From the NCBI GenBank assembly GCA_944387015.1, contig CALXDH010000028.1, positions 1-32,937 of the forward strand: a DNA stretch of 32,937 nt, in the 5' to 3' direction. The position numbers were made by a program, and so were the translations under genes. Positions 542 to 9,404 of this stretch are shown here, piece after piece (within the stretch, counting starts at the first letter, position 1; each line of letters begins with the position of its first letter). Below the pieces are notes generated by a model, which saw only the letters and a list, made by a program, of their open reading frames with translations, ran no database searches and was not told the origin of the DNA. The DNA is from an uncultured Oscillospiraceae bacterium (GTDB taxonomy: Bacteria; Bacillota; Clostridia; Oscillospirales; Oscillospiraceae).

Positions 542-2503
542 ATGGCTAAAAAGGAACAGTCTGCCCGTTTTCACGCGGGGACATTGACAGACGGATGGAA
601 GTGGTTCGGCGCGCATCCGGCGGAAAAGCGCGGGAAGACCGGTTGGGAATTTCGGGTGTGGGCCCCCCACGCCAAGTCGGTCTCTGTGGTGGGGGATTTC
701 AATGACTGGAAGCGCAGCGCCGCCCGGCTGCGGAAAAACGGAGAGGTCTGGGAGGGCTTTGTCCCGGACCTGAAGGAATATACGTCCTACAAGTATGCGG
801 TGGAAGGCGCGGACGGCACCGTGCATTTCAAGGCGGACCCCTATGGATTCCACACGGAGACCCGGCCCGCCACCGCCAGCAAGCTGTATGATCTTTCCGG
901 TTTCCGCTGGAGTGATGAGAAGTTCCGGGACCAGCAGGCCAAACACCCGGTGTACGACTCTCCCCTCAACATCTACGAGGTCCATCTGAGCTCCTGGAAA
1001 AAGCGGGACAACGGGGACTTCATCGACTATAAGGACCTGGCCAAGGACCTGGCGGCCTATGTCAAGGACATGGGCTATACCGCCATCGAGCTGCTGCCGG
1101 TGACGGAGCATCCTCTGGATGACTCCTGGGGCTACCAGTGCACCGGCTACTTCGCTCCCACGTCCCGGTTCGGCACGCCCAAGGACTTCAAGTGGTTCGT
1201 CAACCACATGCACAAAAACGGTATCGCCGTGCTGCTGGACTGGGTCCCTGCCCACTTCTGCAAGGACGAGCAGGGACTCTACGAATTCGACGGCACCTGC
1301 TGCTATGAGTACAGCGACCCCAACAAGCGGGAGCACGCCGCCTGGGGCACCCGGGTCTTTGACTACGGCCGGCCCGAGGTCAAGAGCTTCCTTCTCTCCT
1401 CCGCCCGGTTCTGGCTGGAGGAGTACCACATCGACGGACTGCGGGTGGACGCAGTGGCGTCCATGCTGTATCTGGATTACGACCGCCAGGGCGGCGCCTG
1501 GACCCCCAACAAATACGGCGGACATGAGAATCTGGAGGCCATCGAGTTCCTCCGGGAGCTCAACCAGATGGCCTTCTCCGTCAATCCCAACGTGCTGATG
1601 ATCGCGGAGGAGTCCACCGCGTGGCCCCTGGTGACCCGCCCGCCGGAGGTGGGCGGCCTGGGCTTCAACCTCAAATGGAACATGGGCTGGATGAACGACA
1701 TGTGCCACTATCTCAAGCTGGACCCCTGGTTCCGGCAGGACCACCACCGGGACATCACCTTCTCCATGATGTACGCCTTCTCGGAGAACTATGTGCTGCC
1801 CATCTCCCACGACGAGGTGGTCCACATGAAGGGCTCCGTGGTGGGCAAGATGCCCGGCGACTACGAAAACCAGCTCCGGTGCCTGCGGGGCTTTTACGCC
1901 TACCTCCTGGCCCATCCCGGCAAGAAGCTGCTCTTCATGGGCGCGGAGCTGGGCCAGTGGCATGAGTGGGACTCCGACGGCCAGCTGGACTGGTATCTGC
2001 TGGACCAGGACATCAACCAGAAGGTCCACCGCTTCTTCAAGGACATCAACGCCTTCTACAAGAAGGAACCTGCCCTGTGGGAGATCGACTTCAGCTGGGA
2101 GGGCTTCGAGTGGCTGGTGCCGGATGACAACCACAACAATGTGGTGGTGTTCCTGCGCAAGGATAAGAAGGGACGGGATCTGCTGTGCGCCGTCAACTTC
2201 TCTCCCAATACATACGAAAATTACCGGATGGGCGTGCCGTCCCACAGACGGTATGTGCCCGTGTTCAATACCGACGATCCCGCCTATGGCGGCGACGGCT
2301 TCGGCGATGCGGCGGCGGTGGCGGTGGAGGCCATCCCCTCCCATGGAAAGGAATACTCCGCGGCGATCCGGATCCCCGCGTTCGGCGCGGTGTTTCTCAG
2401 AGGCGAGGGGACGCTCCCCAAGCCCCGAAAGAAAAAACAGGCAAAAGAGGTTCAGACAGTCAAAGCAAGTGTAAAAGAGGCAAAGGAGCTGGAGAAAACA
2501 TGA
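542..2503 (+). CDS. glgB: 1,4-alpha-glucan branching enzyme
   Basis: GlgB cuts alpha-1,4 glucan chains and re-attaches them as alpha-1,6 branches during cytoplasmic glycogen synthesis. The 653-residue protein has an N-terminal CBM48 domain (about 35-130, containing [20 protein letters not shown]), then a GH13 barrel. Catalytic residues are visible: the nucleophile in [11 protein letters not shown] (Asp303), the acid/base in MIAEEST (Glu356), and ISHDEV (Asp424) near the active site. A C-terminal beta domain follows, ending in a short Lys-rich tail. The length fits bacterial GlgB. The ATG has AGGAG 10 nt upstream. It is the first gene of the operon, and its TGA overlaps the glgC ATG in an ATGA, implying coupled translation. 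Confidence 0.97.
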
Positions 2504-3711
2504 AAAAAGAATGTATCGCCATGCTGCTGGCAGGCGGCCAGGGAAGCCGTCTGTACGTGCTCACGGGCGAGATGGCCAAGCCCGCCGTGGCATTTGGCGG
2601 CAAGTATCGCATCATTGACTTTCCACTTTCCAACTGCACCAATTCCGGCATTGACACGGTAGGCGTCCTGACCCAGTACCGCCCGCTGGAGCTCAACAGC
2701 TACATCGGCAGCGGCGTGCCCTGGGATCTGGACAACTCCACCGGCGGCGTACATATCCTGCCCCCCTACATGGGCAGCAAGGGCGGTACCTGGTACAAGG
2801 GCACTGCCAACGCCATCTATCAGAACATGGGCTTCATCGACCTGTACGATCCGGACTACGTGGTGGTCCTCTCCGGCGACCATATCTACAAGATGGACTA
2901 CTCCCGGATGGTGGAGCGCCATAAGGCTGCCGGCGCCGCGTGCACCATCTCCGTCATGGAAGTGCCCTGGGAGGAGGCGTCCCGGTTCGGCATCATGAGC
3001 GTGGACGAGAACGACCTCATCACGGAGTTTGCGGAAAAGCCCAAGGAGCCCAAGAGCAACCTGGCGTCCATGGGTATCTACGTCTTCTCCTGGCAGACGC
3101 TGCGCAAGTATCTGACGGAGGACGAGGCCGATCCCAACTCCGAAAACGACTTCGGCAAGAACGTGATCCCTGCCATGCTGGGCAACGGCGAGGTCATGGC
3201 AGCCTATCGTTTCAGCGGCTACTGGAAGGATGTGGGCACGCTGGAGTCCTTGTGGGACGCCAATATGGATATGCTCTCTCCCGAGTCCGGCCTGGACCTG
3301 CTGGATGAGTCCTGGCCCATCTACGCCCGGTCCGTCAATGCGCCGCCGGCCTTCCTGGGAGCCAGATCCCGGGTGTGCCACAGCGCGTTCAACCGCGGCA
3401 GCAATATTGAGGGCGTTGTGGAAAACTCCGTCCTCTCCCCGCAGGTCAGCATCGGAGAGGGTGCCCGGGTGAGCTACTCGGTGCTGCTGCCCGGCGTGGT
3501 GGTGGAGCCCGGCGCGGTGGTGGAGTATGCCATCCTGGGCGAGAACTGCCGCATCGGCCGCAACTGCCGGGTAGGCGGCACGCCGGAGAACACGGCGCCC
3601 GCGCCCTGGGGGCTGACGGTATTGGCGCCCGGCTGCGTCCTGGAGGAAGGACAGACGGTGGCTCCCGGCATCATGCTGGACCGTGACGGCAAGGAGGTAT
3701 CCAGAAAATGA
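2500..3711 (+). CDS. glgC: Glucose-1-phosphate adenylyltransferase, catalytic subunit
   Basis: GlgC makes ADP-glucose from ATP and glucose-1-phosphate, the committed step of bacterial glycogen synthesis. The 403-residue product opens with the nucleotidyltransferase signature [10 protein letters not shown], followed by [20 protein letters not shown]. It contains the active-site stretch [16 protein letters not shown] and the sugar-phosphate region [19 protein letters not shown] left-handed beta-helix occupies the C-terminal third ([20 protein letters not shown]). The start is the ATG overlapping the glgB stop, with an AAAGGAG-like site inside the glgB end. The longer upstream reading frame is rejected because it only overlaps glgB in another phase. 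It overlaps glgD by 4 nt (ATGA). Confidence 0.97.
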
Positions 3712-4820
3712 AAGGAATGCACGGAATTATCTTTTCGTATGAAAAGCGCAACGATCTGCGGGAGCTGGGCGAGATCCGCTCCGCATCTTCCATCCCCTTC
3801 GGCGGCCGCTATCGGGCGGTGGACTTCTCCTTGTCCAATCTGGTCAATGCCGGCGTGACCGACGTGGGCGTGGTGCTTCACGGCCACTATCAGAGCCTGC
3901 TGGACCACCTGGGCACCGGCAAGGACTGGGACCTGTCCCGTAAGCGGGGCGGTCTGAAGATCCTGCCTCCCTTCGCCTACAAGCAGAAGTGGGGCGAGAC
4001 CGCGTTCCGGGGCAAGATGGAGGCCCTGGCGGGCGTGCGCAGCTACCTGGACACCATCCGGCAGGACTACGTGGTGCTGCTGGAGGGCGATCTGGTGGTG
4101 AACCTGCCTCTGGCGGAGATTTTTGAGACCCACATCCAGTCCGGGGCGGACATCACCGTGGTCTGCGGAAACGACAGCTTCGCCACCGAGAACGGCACCT
4201 ATTTCGAGCTGGACCATGACGGCTGGGTCACGGACGTGCTCTATCACCTCCACAATCCCCGGGGCTACCGGGGCCTGGAGGCCTACATCATCTCCACCCA
4301 GCTGCTCAAGGACCTGGTGGACGAGTGCTTCGTCCACGACCAGTTCAGCTGGCGGCGGGATGTGCTGCAGGCCCGCAAGGACCAGCTCCGTCTCCACGCC
4401 TATGTCTGGAACGGCTTTGCGGCCCAGATCCGCTCCGTTCAGGAGTACTATGACCGCAGCATGCAGCTGCTCAACCCCGACATCCGGGCGGAGCTGTTCT
4501 GCCAGGAGCGGCCCATCCGGGCCAAGGGCGCCGACAAGTCCTCGGCCTATATCGGCCCCAACGGTGCCTGCGTCAACTCCCTGGTGGCCGACGGCAGCTA
4601 CATTGAGGGCAAGGTGGAAAACTCCATCCTGTTCCCCGGCGTCCGTGTGGAGGAGGGCGCGGTGATCCGCAACTGCGTGCTCTTCAAGGAGACGGTGATC
4701 CGCCGCAACGCGGAGCTCGCCTACATCATTGCGGATAAGAACGTGGAGGTCCTGCCGGATCGGACGCTGATGGGACACTCCAGCTACCCCATCGTTTTGG
4801 CCAAGGGAAGTGTGGTATAA
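3708..4820 (+). CDS. glgD: GlgD, regulatory ADP-glucose pyrophosphorylase-like subunit
   Basis: This 370-residue protein has the same fold as GlgC: a nucleotidyltransferase domain and a C-terminal left-handed beta-helix ([20 protein letters not shown]). It lacks the glycine-rich GGxGxRL loop, having [18 protein letters not shown] at that place, and it keeps [17 protein letters not shown]. That pattern is typical of the Firmicute GlgD paralogue, which has little or no catalytic activity alone and forms a hetero-oligomer with GlgC that changes its kinetics. The adjacent, 4-nt-overlapping genes fit a fixed subunit ratio. After the stop comes a strong hairpin, which may lower expression of the two distal genes. 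Confidence 0.95.
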
Positions 4821-4934: not shown

Positions 4935-6959
4935 ATGAAGATTTTGTATGCGACCAGCGAAGCGGTGCCCTTTTGCAAAACCGGAGGGCTGGCGGATGTG
5001 GCGGGTTCCCTCCCGCCGGCGCTGGCGGCCGAGGGCGCGGAGATCGCCGTGGTGCTGCCGCTGTATCAGCGGGTGAAGGAGCGCTTCGGTGACCAGCTGA
5101 AGTTCGAGTGCTACGACTATGTGGACCTGGCCTGGCGGCACAGCTACTGCGGTCTCTTCTCCCTGGAGCGGGAGGGCGTGACATGGTACTTCCTGGACAA
5201 CGAGCAGTACTTCCGCCGCCCGGAGCTCTACGGCTATATGGATGACGGAGAGCGCTTCGGCTTCTTCTCCCGGGCCGTGGTGCGGATGTTGGGGCACTTC
5301 AAATTCTGGCCCGACGTCATCCACTGCAACGACTGGCAGACCGCCCTGGTGCCCATCTACCTCAAGGATGACGGTGTCCGGGAAGATCGGTTCCGGAGTA
5401 TCAAAACAACCCTCACTATCCATAATATTGAATACCAGGGCCGTTATGGCAAGGAGACCCTGGGAGACCTGTTCGGCCTGGACCACGGCTGGGCGGACGA
5501 CGGTACCATTTTGATGGACGGCGATGTGAACCTGCTCAAGGGCGCCATCCTCTGCGCCGACGCGGTGAACGCCGTCTCTCCCACCTATGCCAACGAGCTG
5601 AAGATGTCCTACTTCGCCCACCGGCTGGAAAACGTCATGCGCCAGTGCGGCTATAAGCTCTCCGGCGTCCTCAACGGCATCGACCTCAAGCGGTATGATC
5701 CCGCTGCCGACTCCCACATCACCGCCAATTACAGCAAGGACGACATGGCCGGCAAGAGCGCCGACAAGGCCGCCCTCCAGCGGATGATGGGCCTGCGGGA
5801 GGAGCCCTATACCCCCATCGTCGCCATCGTCAGCCGCCTGGTGTCCCACAAGGGGCTGGACTTGATTTGCGAGGTGCTTCATGATATGATGGAGCTCCCG
5901 CTGCAGCTGGTGGTTCTTGGAAAGGGCGACCGCAAGTACGAGGATTTCTTCGGCTGGGCGGCCCAGCAGTACCCCGGCCGGATGGCGGTGCGCCTGGACT
6001 ACAATGAGGATCTGTCCATGGCCATCTACGCCGGTGCGGACCTGTTCCTGATGCCCTCCAAGAGCGAGCCCTGCGGCCTCTCCCAGATGATCGCCATGCG
6101 CTATGGCACGGTGCCCATCGTCCGGGAGACCGGCGGGCTGAAGGATACTGTCCAGCCCTATGAGGCCTGGCGGGACGCCGGCAACGGCTTCACCTTCGCA
6201 AACTACGCCAGCGGTGACATGCTCTATGTCATCCGGGAAGCCGTTTACCTTTACAAGGACTATCCCGACGCCTTTGCCCGCCTCCGGAGCCGCGCCATGG
6301 AGAGCGACTTCAGCTGGAAGCGCAGCGCCGGAGAGTACCTGCATATCTACTCCAACATCACCGGGCAGCCCTGGCCCCCCGCATCTGAGGAGCCCACTCC
6401 CGTGGCGTCAGAACCGGAGCCTGCTGCGGTGGAGGAGCCTGTGACGGAGCCTGCCCCGGCGGAGGAAGCGCCTGCTCAGGAGGAGCCCGCCCCCGTGCCG
6501 GAGAAGGCCGAGGAAGCGGCACCTGCCGAAGAGCCTGCGCCCGCAGAAGTGCCCGCTCCGGCGAAGAGCGAAGAGAAGGCACTGCGGGTGGACACCACGG
6601 GCCGCGCCCTGGTGGCCAAGGAGGAAAAGCCCACCGCACTGACGCAGATCCCCGCGGATCAGCCCAAGGCCCTGGTAAAGCAGGAGACTCCGGCGGCGCC
6701 CGCCAAGGCGGAAGTCCCGGCGGAGAAAGCGCCCGTCAAGGAAGAATCTCCCGCCAAGACCGAGGCCCCTGCGGCGGAGAAGGCTCCGGCGGCGAAGAAG
6801 CCTGCCCGGAAGCCCGCGGCCAAAAAGACGGCCGGACGCAAGACGGCAAAGAAGCCCGCAGCGTCCAAATCTACATCAGCCAAGACGGCCAAAGCACCGT
6901 CTGCAAAGAAAGAGACGACCCCGAAGAATGGGACCGCAGCTTCTGAAGAGAAGAAGTAA
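4935..6959 (+). CDS. glgA: Glycogen synthase with a long acidic-then-basic C-terminal tail
   Basis: GlgA transfers glucose from ADP-glucose to growing alpha-1,4 chains. The GT5 domain spans residues 1-478. It starts MKILYATSEAVPFCKTGGLA, with the KTGG substrate loop at 15-18 and SKSEPCGLSQ (Glu378) in the GT-B C-terminal half. The ATG is chosen because AAAGGAG (4918-4924) precedes it and the family begins exactly here; the open frame further upstream would start inside the hairpin. Ordinary GlgA has about 480 residues, whereas this one has 674. Residues 481 to about 610 are rich in Pro, Ala and Glu. From about 614 the tail becomes Lys/Ala-rich with histone-H1-like AAKK and KKPA repeats. The tail is in frame and has no frameshift. 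Its function is unknown. Confidence 0.95.
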   Translation: MKILYATSEAVPFCKTGGLADVAGSLPPALAAEGAEIAVVLPLYQRVKERFGDQLKFECYDYVDLAWRHSYCGLFSLEREGVTWYFLDNEQYFRRPELYGYMDDGERFGFFSRAVVRMLGHFKFWPDVIHCNDWQTALVPIYLKDDGVREDRFRSIKTTLTIHNIEYQGRYGKETLGDLFGLDHGWADDGTILMDGDVNLLKGAILCADAVNAVSPTYANELKMSYFAHRLENVMRQCGYKLSGVLNGIDLKRYDPAADSHITANYSKDDMAGKSADKAALQRMMGLREEPYTPIVAIVSRLVSHKGLDLICEVLHDMMELPLQLVVLGKGDRKYEDFFGWAAQQYPGRMAVRLDYNEDLSMAIYAGADLFLMPSKSEPCGLSQMIAMRYGTVPIVRETGGLKDTVQPYEAWRDAGNGFTFANYASGDMLYVIREAVYLYKDYPDAFARLRSRAMESDFSWKRSAGEYLHIYSNITGQPWPPASEEPTPVASEPEPAAVEEPVTEPAPAEEAPAQEEPAPVPEKAEEAAPAEEPAPAEVPAPAKSEEKALRVDTTGRALVAKEEKPTALTQIPADQPKALVKQETPAAPAKAEVPAEKAPVKEESPAKTEAPAAEKAPAAKKPARKPAAKKTAGRKTAKKPAASKSTSAKTAKAPSAKKETTPKNGTAASEEKK

Positions 6960-6977
6960 GCGGAGTAAGGAAGGTTC

Positions 6978-9404
6978 ATGACAGCATTTACCACGAAAAA
7001 ACTGAAAGAGGCCCTCACCGCCAAGCTGATGCTCAACTTCGGCAAGGTGCCTGAGGAAGCTACCGACCAGGAGATGATGAAGGCCAGCGCCCTGGTGATC
7101 CGGGACGTGATGGCCCTGCGGGAGGTCGAGACCCGCACCAAGACCCGCCGGGAGCAGAAAAAGCAGGTGCATTACCTGTCTTTGGAGTTCCTGATGGGCC
7201 GCAGCCTGATGAAAAACGCCTATAATCTGGAGATCCTGCCCCAGCTGCGGGAGGCTCTGGAACAGATGGGCTTCAAGGCGGCGGACATTTTCGAGCTGGA
7301 GCCCGACGCGGCACTGGGCAACGGCGGCCTGGGCCGCCTGGCCGCCTGCTATCTGGATTCCATGACCACGCTGGAGATCCCCGCCACCGGCTATTCCATC
7401 TGCTATGAGCTGGGCATCTTCAAGCAGAAGATCGTGGAGGGCCAGCAGGTGGAGCTGCCCGACGACTGGAAGGGGCTGGGCTCCGCCTGGCTGCTGCCCA
7501 AGCCCGAGGAGGCTCAGGAGGTCCGCTTCGGCGGCACCATCCGGGAATTCTGGGACGACGGCCACCTGCATGTGGTCAACGAGAACGCCACGGTGGTCCG
7601 GGCAGTGCCCTGCGATATGGAGATCGCCGGCTACGGTACGGATCATGTAAACGTGCTGCGGCTGTGGGACGCCCGTTCCACCAAGCCGCTGGATATGTCG
7701 CTGTTCTCCCGGGGCGAGTATCTGAAGGCCGCCGAGGAGGAGGCCATGGCAGAGACCATCGCCAAGGTCCTCTATCCCGAGGATAACCATCTGGAGGGCA
7801 AGTCCCTGCGGCTCAAGCAGCAGTACTTCTTCGTCTCCGCCACGGTGCAGTCCATCGCGGCCAAGCACCTGGAGGTCTACGGCACGCTGAAGAACTTCCA
7901 CGAGAAGAACGTCATCCAGATCAACGACACCCATCCCGCCCTGGTGATCCCGGAGCTGATGCGCATCTTCATCGACGACGCCGGCATGGACTGGGACGAA
8001 GCCTGGAGCATCACCACCCAGTCGGTGGCCTACACCAACCACACGGTGCTGGCGGAGGCGCTGGAGCGCTGGCCCCAGAACCTCTTCGAGCACTTCCTGC
8101 CCCGGATCTGGCAGATCACCCAGGAGATTTCCGCCCGCTGGCAGAAGAAGGTGGAGGACTTCTACCACGATCCCCAGAAGACGGAGAAAATGGCCATCAT
8201 CTGGGGCGGCGAGGTCCGGATGGCGAACCTGTGCGTGGCCGGCGGCATGGCGGTTAACGGCGTCAGCGCCCTCCACTCCGACATCCTGCGCAAGGACGTG
8301 TTTAAAAACGCCTGCACCATGGAGCCCTGGAAGTTCCAGAATGTCACCAACGGCATCGATCACCGCCGCTGGCTCAGCGAGATCAACCCGGAGCTGGACA
8401 GCCTGATCCGGGATCTCGCCGGTGGGGACGACTACCTGCTCCATCCCACGGCTCTGGAGAAGCTGGATGCCTACGCCGACGACAAGACGGTGCTGGAGCG
8501 TCTGGCCAAGATCAAGCAGGACAACAAGGAGCGGTTCGCCCTCTATGCCAAAAAGCACCAGGGCGTGGTGCTGGATCCCACCGCCATCTTCGATGTGCAG
8601 GTCAAGCGGCTCCACGAGTATAAGCGCCAGCTTCTCAACGTGCTGCACATCATTGCGCTCTACCAGAAGCTTCAGGACGATCCCAACTGCATCACCCAGC
8701 CCCACACCTTCCTCTTCGGCGCCAAGGCGGCGCCGGGCTATGCGGTGGCCAAGCGGATCATCCGCCTCATCAACTCCCTGGCCGATCAGATCGAGCACGA
8801 TCCCATCTGCAAGGGCAAGCTGCAGGTGGTGTTCCTGGAGAACTACCGGGTGTCCCTGGCGGAGCAGCTGATGCCCGCCAGCGAGGTCAGCCAGCAGATC
8901 TCCACCGCCGGCAAGGAGGCCAGCGGCACCGGCAATATGAAGTTCATGATGAACGGCGCCCTGACCGTCGGTACGCTGGACGGCGCCAATGTGGAGATGC
9001 ACGAGGTGCTGGGCGACGAGAACATGTTCCTGTTCGGCCTGCGGGCCGACGAGGTGGAGCAGCTCAAGCGGGAGGGCTATGTGCCCCAGCGGCTCTACCG
9101 CCGGGACGAGCGGCTGCGCCGCTGCCTGGACGCGCTGCGCACCGGTTTCCGGAACGGCGTGAGCTACGACGATCTGTATCAGCGGCTGCTCTTCGGCGCC
9201 GGCGGGAGCCCAGCGGACGAGTATCTGCTGCTGGCGGACTTCCAGGCCTACTGTGAGGCCGAGCAGCGGATGGCCCACACCTATCACGATCCCATCCAGT
9301 GGAACCGCATGAGCCTGCACAACATCGCCCGCAGCGGCATCTTCGCCGCCGACCGGGCCGTGGCGGAGTATGCGGACAACATCTGGCACGTGCCTCATCG
9401 CTGA
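6978..9404 (+). CDS. glgP: Glycogen/maltodextrin phosphorylase
   Basis: GlgP releases glucose-1-phosphate from glycogen chain ends using inorganic phosphate and pyridoxal phosphate. At 808 residues it has the normal GT35 length. Visible signatures are YLSLEFLMGRSLMKN near residue 60, the ALGNGGLGRLAACYLDS loop, INDTHPAL, and the cofactor site EASGTGNMKF, whose lysine is residue 655. The ATG at 6978 follows AAGGAAGG and lies 18 nt after glgA. It is the last gene of the operon, so synthesis and breakdown are transcribed together. A strong terminator follows 28 nt after the stop. I see no N-terminal allosteric phosphorylation site like that of animal enzymes. Confidence 0.97.
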   Translation: MTAFTTKKLKEALTAKLMLNFGKVPEEATDQEMMKASALVIRDVMALREVETRTKTRREQKKQVHYLSLEFLMGRSLMKNAYNLEILPQLREALEQMGFKAADIFELEPDAALGNGGLGRLAACYLDSMTTLEIPATGYSICYELGIFKQKIVEGQQVELPDDWKGLGSAWLLPKPEEAQEVRFGGTIREFWDDGHLHVVNENATVVRAVPCDMEIAGYGTDHVNVLRLWDARSTKPLDMSLFSRGEYLKAAEEEAMAETIAKVLYPEDNHLEGKSLRLKQQYFFVSATVQSIAAKHLEVYGTLKNFHEKNVIQINDTHPALVIPELMRIFIDDAGMDWDEAWSITTQSVAYTNHTVLAEALERWPQNLFEHFLPRIWQITQEISARWQKKVEDFYHDPQKTEKMAIIWGGEVRMANLCVAGGMAVNGVSALHSDILRKDVFKNACTMEPWKFQNVTNGIDHRRWLSEINPELDSLIRDLAGGDDYLLHPTALEKLDAYADDKTVLERLAKIKQDNKERFALYAKKHQGVVLDPTAIFDVQVKRLHEYKRQLLNVLHIIALYQKLQDDPNCITQPHTFLFGAKAAPGYAVAKRIIRLINSLADQIEHDPICKGKLQVVFLENYRVSLAEQLMPASEVSQQISTAGKEASGTGNMKFMMNGALTVGTLDGANVEMHEVLGDENMFLFGLRADEVEQLKREGYVPQRLYRRDERLRRCLDALRTGFRNGVSYDDLYQRLLFGAGGSPADEYLLLADFQAYCEAEQRMAHTYHDPIQWNRMSLHNIARSGIFAADRAVAEYADNIWHVPHR

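Follow-up and report, generated by a model that had tools for sequence, protein, structure and literature searches.

A histone H1-like C-terminal tail on the glycogen synthase of Oscillibacter and related Oscillospiraceae, a candidate nucleoid tether

INTRODUCTION

Why would a glycogen synthase end in a long arm that is first acidic and then rich in lysine and alanine, like the tails of bacterial histone H1-like proteins? The question is raised by the glgA gene of an uncultured Oscillospiraceae bacterium, located on a stretch of DNA of 32,937 nucleotides (the window). The host belongs to the genus Oscillibacter/Dysosmobacter, and its closest named record is Oscillibacter sp. CAG:155 (99%). Several roles for the arm had been suggested in a preliminary description of the locus, and a tether to nucleic acid is now the best supported among them. 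We consider it plausible, though slightly short of an even chance, that the enzymes which build glycogen are kept at the nucleoid by nucleic acid-binding tips, much as other granules are by PhaF, PhaM, PhaH, and AlgP. The tether is favored because a similar AAKK tail is present on DNA topoisomerase I (TopA) of this genome, lysine tails are present on the branching enzyme GlgB, and a helix-hairpin-helix (HhH) domain, a known DNA-binding fold, takes the position of the tail on the GlgA of two other families.

RESULTS

A complete glycogen synthase continues into an acidic and then a basic block

The glgA gene is a single open frame running from the ATG at position 4935 to the stop codon at 6957-6959. 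It is preceded by the Shine-Dalgarno-like sequence AAAGGAGA, and 18 bases separate its stop codon from the glgP ATG at 6978 (Table 1). The two best NCBIfam models, NF001898 (E = 3.8e-191) and TIGR02095 (E = 2.5e-163), cover residues 1-476 and 1-474, respectively, and the weaker GlgA models reach residue 486 at the farthest. With full-length matches, the protein passes the curated cut-offs of these two models (635.8 bits versus 603 and 544.2 bits versus 328.45). With Pfam (E = 0.001), only glycosyltransferase domains were detected in the protein, and neither a phasin or other polyhydroxybutyrate-binding domain nor an HhH domain was found. The predicted glycogen synthase activity is supported by the presence of glgB, glgC, glgD, and glgP in the operon. 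No RNA family reached its threshold within the window.

In its complete catalytic part and its operon with glgB, glgC, glgD, and glgP, the protein resembles other bacterial ADP-glucose GlgA enzymes (TIGR02095, NF001898). It differs from them in length, since tail-less members end at about 471 to 489 residues, in agreement with the end near residue 480 given in the preliminary description, whereas the window GlgA continues for 196 residues beyond its catalytic part (about residues 1-476). The roughly 195 extra in-frame residues described earlier were likewise recovered (194 amino acids with a net charge of -1 for 6375-6956), as was their order, with an acidic Pro/Ala/Glu part of net charge -16 preceding some 60 basic residues with AAKK/KKPA repeats (59 amino acids, net +16). 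The spacer between them is of mixed charge, with +2 for residues 542-583 and -3 for residues 584-615. The basic block contains 17 lysines and 2 arginines and consists to 86% of A, K, P, T, and S. By composition it belongs with the H1-like bacterial tails of AlgP, PhaF, and TopA, being Lys/Ala/Pro-rich with short AAKK/KPAA-type repeats. Residues W, F, Y, I, L, M, and C make up a median of 1.8% of the 79 complete tails described below, a composition compatible with disorder, and the tail is probably a disordered arm.

Table 1. Features of the glycogen operon and of the GlgA tail in the window
Feature	Position	Strand	Remarks
glgB, branching enzyme, glycogen operon	542..2503	+	NCBIfam models
GlgB short basic C-terminal tail	2402..2500	+	33 aa, net +5
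glgC, tail-less	2500..3711	+	NCBIfam models; C-terminal end read
glgD, tail-less	3708..4820	+	NCBIfam models; C-terminal end read
glgA, ADP-glucose type glycogen synthase	4935..6959, stop codon included	+	674 aa
GlgA catalytic part, GT5, residues 1-478	4935..6368	+	Pfam PF08323, E = 1.9e-77
Acidic Pro/Ala/Glu block, residues 479-541	6369..6557	+	81% P/A/E, net -16
Mixed spacer, residues 542-615	6558..6779	+	net about -1
Histone H1-like basic block (AAKK/KKPA), residues 616-674	6780..6956	+	59 aa, net +16
KNGTA, the window version of the end motif K[KNG]G[TPS]A	6924..6938	+	position counted from sequence
glgP, glycogen phosphorylase, tail-less	6978..9404	+	NCBIfam models; C-terminal end read

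The frame of GlgA is the only one on either strand that is free of stop codons across the tail. TRF analysis of positions 6300-7000 returned two short repeats only, an 18-mer (2.1 copies) where the basic block begins and a 7-mer (2.1 copies) in the spacer. Lysine and alanine codons are mixed in the basic block of the window, and a long DNA tandem repeat is absent. Recent DNA slippage as the origin of this block was therefore unsupported by TRF in the region analyzed.

The tail is nearly genus-wide and reappears in more distant genera

A GlgA match was obtained in 83 of the 86 genomes of the genus sample. Among 76 distinct GlgA domains, 69 carry a complete tail (defined as ≥30 amino acids), four are cut or gapped by contig ends or assembly gaps (loci L002, L020, L033, and L060), and three are tail-less (L054, L123, and L164), so that the tail is nearly genus-wide. 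Because the 69 complete tails come from distinct domains and include those of isolates (L003, L005, L010, L021, and L027), the tail is neither a chance product nor a sequencing slip, and a frame slip, a pseudogene, and an artifact of metagenome assembly were ruled out on the same grounds.

The second half carries the more positive charge in 65 of the 69 complete genus tails; in the remaining four, the halves are equal or reversed. With the boundary between the blocks placed so as to maximize segregation, the basic block keeps a steady charge (median +15, quartiles +13 and +16), and the acidic block varies in charge from -1 to -37 and in length from 11 to 148 amino acids, as would be expected of a tip carried on a linker. 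The basic block falls below +8 in two of the 69 tails, one of which, L051, has none at all. The end motif K[KNG]G[TPS]A is found within the last 35 residues of 48 of the 69 genus tails and in 0 of 10 tails from other genera.

Those ten complete tails come from three genera that lie farther away within the family (g44, g50, and g63; 53 to 55% identity), and in all ten the second half is again the more positive. In the nearest other genera (64 to 69% identity; L124-L140), none of the 17 loci read has a tail, with 0 to 2 extra residues. Absence from the nearest relatives, named in the preliminary description as a point against the tail, was thus found for the nearest other genera but within the genus for only 3 of the 76 domains. 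Together, the 17 tail-less loci and these three domains argue that the tail is dispensable for glycogen synthesis, and they count against the tether.

On a GlgA tree of 121 rows, the tailed state requires at least five changes, three of them forced by well-supported branches, compared with an average of 39.8 changes for shuffled tail labels. Both repeated gain and one gain followed by several losses agree with this tree, a quick LG+G4 reconstruction with midpoint root and long-branch warnings that includes every second of the closest genus rows and counts among the tailed rows L002, which has an assembly gap in its tail, L020 and L148, both cut by contig ends, and L051, whose tail is acidic only.

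In the order sample, GlgA matches were found in 263 of 297 genomes, at least 121 of them outside the family. Eight out-of-family GlgAs (L188-L195), which include most of those with the longest frames, have 0 to 2 extra residues, and the remaining out-of-family frames among the matches listed leave room for at most about 55.

Two other kinds of GlgA ending were observed. L148 (G105:C38) has a different tail of EEAAARKAAEEAAAKK-like charged helical repeats that is broken off by the contig end, and a further GlgA of some family members, about 50% identical to that of the window, ends in an SCP-2 sterol-transfer-like domain (L159 and L160; PF02036, E = 1.6e-9 and 5.9e-11, respectively).

Within the operon, only GlgA and GlgB are tailed

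In relatives, the GlgB tail reaches about 140 amino acids and a charge of up to +26. The stretch following the GlgB domain is net positive in all 55 parsed rows, a set from which 17 of 25 other-genus operons dropped out through a mismatch to the end-of-domain pattern, and it carries at least +10 in 15 of them, some having just 9 to 20 residues. A separate reading of GlgB ends, which took in the operons dropped from that set, gave a net charge of -6 for the family member L243. Six operons of g44, g50, and g63 have tails on GlgB and GlgA alike, and strongly basic GlgB tails also stand beside tail-less GlgA (L245-L248). Outside the family, 12 of the 25 GlgBs read (from loci among the 45 of 59 genomes with a match) have at least 20 residues past the domain, and 13 of the 25 carry at least +5. 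Across the order, a lysine-rich tail on GlgB is a frequent finding (L319, L325-L330, L332-L334, L337, and L338).

Fewer than 10 residues follow the domain in 90 of 91 GlgC, 192 of 192 GlgD, and 60 of 60 GlgP rows (duplicates included), the sole exception being GlgC of Orenia (L069), whose extension is not lysine-rich. Tails in this operon are confined to the two polymer-building enzymes, GlgA and GlgB.

Helix-hairpin-helix ends on the GlgA of two other families

The HhH fold is known mainly for DNA. In a sample of the phylum, GlgA matches (E = 1e-60) were found in 85 of 159 genomes. Of ten loci with long frames that were read (a set to which a similar-length frame in G660, the second GlgA of G130, and shorter frames do not belong), eight have at most 16 extra residues, and two end in an HhH domain. 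The HHH_3 model scores 61.8 bits for L263 (E = 6.5e-17) and 67.1 bits for L264 (E = 1.4e-18), above the Pfam cut-off of 27; Pfam was applied to these two ends, and the other HhH ends were identified by eye. ComEA is among the solved structures related to the HhH stretch (E = 2.1e-10). All 14 genomes of one family and three of five of another have a GlgA followed by a variable linker and an HhH domain. Loci with this arrangement are L263, L264, L273-L275, and L293-L306. GlgAs of one of the two families are 65 to 70% identical to that of Orenia metallireducens, and our guess is that the families belong to the Halanaerobiales. Yet another arrangement is seen in a GlgA paralog of G147 (L272:1374-3539, G147:C3), with about 230 N-terminal residues in which acidic and AAKK-type blocks alternate.

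The KKxAAKK motif is shared with topoisomerase I and trigger factor

A DNA pattern for KKxAAKK was searched in the genomes, with the reversed pattern as a control. In the genome of the window, five sites match the pattern exactly, and no site matches the control. Four of the five lie in the C-terminal tail of TopA (TIGR01051, E = 6.7e-118; below the cut-off, as expected since the locus truncates the N-terminal part), and the fifth lies in no open frame of more than 60 amino acids that reads KKxAAKK. The tail of the window GlgA contains AAKKPA and KPAAKK, without the exact 7-mer. A protein similarity search of this genome with the whole tail returned GlgA itself only, for which low-complexity scoring may be the reason.

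Among 25 chosen relatives, 22 have KKxAAKK sites (88 in total), and the control gave one site in each of two genomes. The 30 sites examined at their loci are all in frame, and their carriers are TopA, trigger factor, GlgA, a GlgA paralog, GlgB, and one signal peptidase-like small protein to which no family matched. The carriers were named by eye; for six of the 30 sites the names were also checked, which confirmed three trigger factors, a TopA, and a GlgB, the sixth carrier being the small protein. The motif is thus common in the family, yet limited to few kinds of genes among the sites read. Genomes with a tail-less GlgA have sites as well, on TopA and trigger factor; these sites and those of the control indicate that KKxAAKK arises easily in the family. 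Trigger factors with a Lys/Ala-rich C-terminal extension (EEKPAKKTAKKA-like) were seen in the relatives L211, L212, L215-L218, and L226-L228.

The presence of the motif on trigger factor, a ribosome-bound chaperone, means that it is not DNA-specific, which counts against the tether. It also speaks for a different account of the tip, as a general polyanion binder whose partner would be RNA, ribosomes, or polyphosphate and which would gather or regulate the glycogen enzymes without positioning them on the chromosome. Against this account stand the four of five sites on a DNA enzyme in the genome of the window and the ComEA-like HhH fold used by the two other families; for it, KPAA-tailed AlgP has been found on polyphosphate granules (PMC9239181). 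We regard a general polyanion binder as rather unlikely, though as the most serious of the alternatives considered here.

Selection and charge covariation

Pooled over 69 non-independent pairs of close species, pN/pS was 0.098 in the enzyme, as against 0.288 in the acidic and 0.297 in the basic part. These values support purifying selection on the tail codons; they are support rather than proof, because a protein-guided alignment of repetitive sequence favors low dN, and pS in the acidic part, about twice that of the enzyme, is a sign of some misalignment.

Values well below 1 in both halves speak against the view that the tail is an inexpensive brush for solubility or spacing, or a tolerated low-complexity outgrowth that is close to neutral. 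So do the steadiness of the basic charge, the repeated occurrence of the tail with its order unchanged, the restriction to GlgA and GlgB within the operon, and the replacement of the tail by an unrelated DNA-binding fold elsewhere. A brush or neutral growth would account for the wide length range of the acidic block, the three tail-less genus domains, and acidic repeats that look prone to expansion, but on balance we find it improbable.

Acid-first charge segregation is strong, being matched by at most one of 1,000 shuffles in 59 of the 79 complete tails (69 from the genus and ten from other genera); in nine tails, more than 50 of the 1,000 shuffles reach it. It would suit a blocky polyampholyte that self-associates, or in which the acidic block of GlgA pairs with the basic tail of GlgB, so that both enzymes condense on the particle. 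The charges of the acidic and basic blocks within GlgA are uncorrelated, though (rho = -0.02, 69 genus tails). The acidic charge of GlgA and the basic charge of GlgB are correlated in the raw data (rho = -0.36, P = 0.018, n = 43; six GlgA rows with gaps, cut ends, or a different domain were omitted), but not significantly in phylogenetic contrasts (rho = -0.22, P = 0.16, n = 42). Coevolution of the two charges is accordingly unsupported when kinship is taken into account. Strongly basic GlgB tails beside a tail-less GlgA also argue against such pairing. The earlier proposal that opposite charges drive self-association thus gained no specific support from these correlations, and we rate the polyampholyte at much the same low level as the brush, if anything a shade lower.

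DISCUSSION

Tethers between storage granules and the chromosome are already known for polyhydroxybutyrate and polyphosphate. The histone-like proteins PhaM and PhaF and the HhH protein PhaH tie polyhydroxybutyrate granules to the nucleoid, PhaF and PhaM doing so through nonspecific DNA binding (PMC13052382), and AlgP is thought to act likewise for polyphosphate granules (PMC13052382, PMC9239181); these articles, and PMC7398561 below, are cited for parts of their text. In Streptomyces TopA, H1-like lysine repeats stabilize the enzyme on DNA (PMC7398561).

The window GlgA shares with PhaF and PhaM the combination of a storage-polymer protein and a C-terminal histone-like region (PMC13052382). 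PhaF and PhaM differ in being granule-associated accessory proteins rather than the polymerase, and an acidic linker block is absent from their description in the consulted text (PMC13052382); the window GlgA, for its part, has no phasin domain by Pfam. GlgA may therefore work like PhaF, but is not a PhaF. The GlgA-HhH fusions find their counterpart in PhaH of Caulobacter, an HhH DNA binder on a storage granule, although PhaH is a separate phasin on another polymer (PMC13052382), and the window GlgA carries an H1-like tip instead. AlgP of Pseudomonas aeruginosa has a predicted disordered C-terminal KPAA-repeat tail that is required for normal granule spacing (PMC9239181). It differs in acting on polyphosphate granules, in the length of its region of KPAA repeats and variants (154 amino acids), and in an N-terminal domain that is predicted to be helical and is not an enzyme (PMC9239181). 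Actinobacterial TopA, finally, is an enzyme with an H1-like C-terminal lysine tail (PMC7398561), and TopA of the present genome has an AAKK tail. The substrate of TopA is DNA itself, whereas that of GlgA is glycogen. Judged by their predicted modules, the same two kinds that serve in polyhydroxybutyrate tethers, histone-like and HhH, appear on GlgA.

A glycogen enzyme and an H1-like tip in one protein, GlgA, are known here from sequence alone. No report of lysine-rich, disordered, or DNA-binding ends on glycogen synthase or on the branching enzyme was found among the titles and abstract beginnings of the open-licence literature, and a search there for glycogen at the nucleoid gave no such GlgA or GlgB tail. 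The word "glycogen" is absent from the examined text of a 2025 review on organelle positioning (PMC13052382, word search). The first 300,000 characters of a 2024 review on prokaryotic alpha-glucan enzymes do not contain "intrinsically," "unstructured," or "nucleoid" (PMC11046441, word search), and their single mention of a "C-terminal extension" concerns another enzyme.

A nucleic acid tether best accounts for a charged linker of variable length that carries a tip of steady positive charge, is found on both polymer-building enzymes, recurs in several genera, and gives way elsewhere to a DNA-binding fold. The purifying selection on the tail codons and the AAKK-type blocks of the L272 paralog also count in its favor. 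For the nucleoid tether, we propose the following mechanism. The catalytic part of GlgA would stay with the glycogen particle as it grows. The acidic Pro/Ala/Glu block would serve as a repulsive linker whose length is free to vary, and the tip, rich in lysine and alanine, would bind the nucleoid nonspecifically. Together, the tip of GlgA and the lysine tails of GlgB would keep nascent glycogen dispersed along the nucleoid and so prevent its coalescence or its exclusion to the poles, and both daughter cells would thereby inherit some glycogen. The problem that such a tether would solve is seen in Escherichia coli, above all in a csrA mutant, where GlgA-GFP and glycogen collect at the old poles (PMC4836754, in the part of the article consulted). 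Exclusion from the nucleoid is a possible route to this polar location, and in the csrA mutant polar glycogen accompanies a shorter replicative life that is restored by deletion of glgA (PMC4836754). It is very improbable that the tail instead regulates activity, with a basic tip (possibly acetylated) or the acidic block acting on the active site or oligomeric state of GlgA, even though acetylation of the lysine repeats has been suggested for Streptomyces TopA (PMC7398561).

More tentatively, and with somewhat less confidence than we have in the tether itself, we suggest that glycogen particles of these Clostridia may be anchored to the nucleoid, that the anchor may be built into the polymer-making enzymes, and that it may have evolved at least twice from unrelated modules, as an acidic linker with an H1-like tip in Oscillospiraceae and as a linker with a ComEA-like HhH domain in two other families. 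Naturally occurring forms of a single enzyme, tailed, tail-less, or ending in HhH, offer ready comparisons. If the suggestion is true, the sharing of stores between daughter cells of some gut bacteria would be an evolved trait, open to test.
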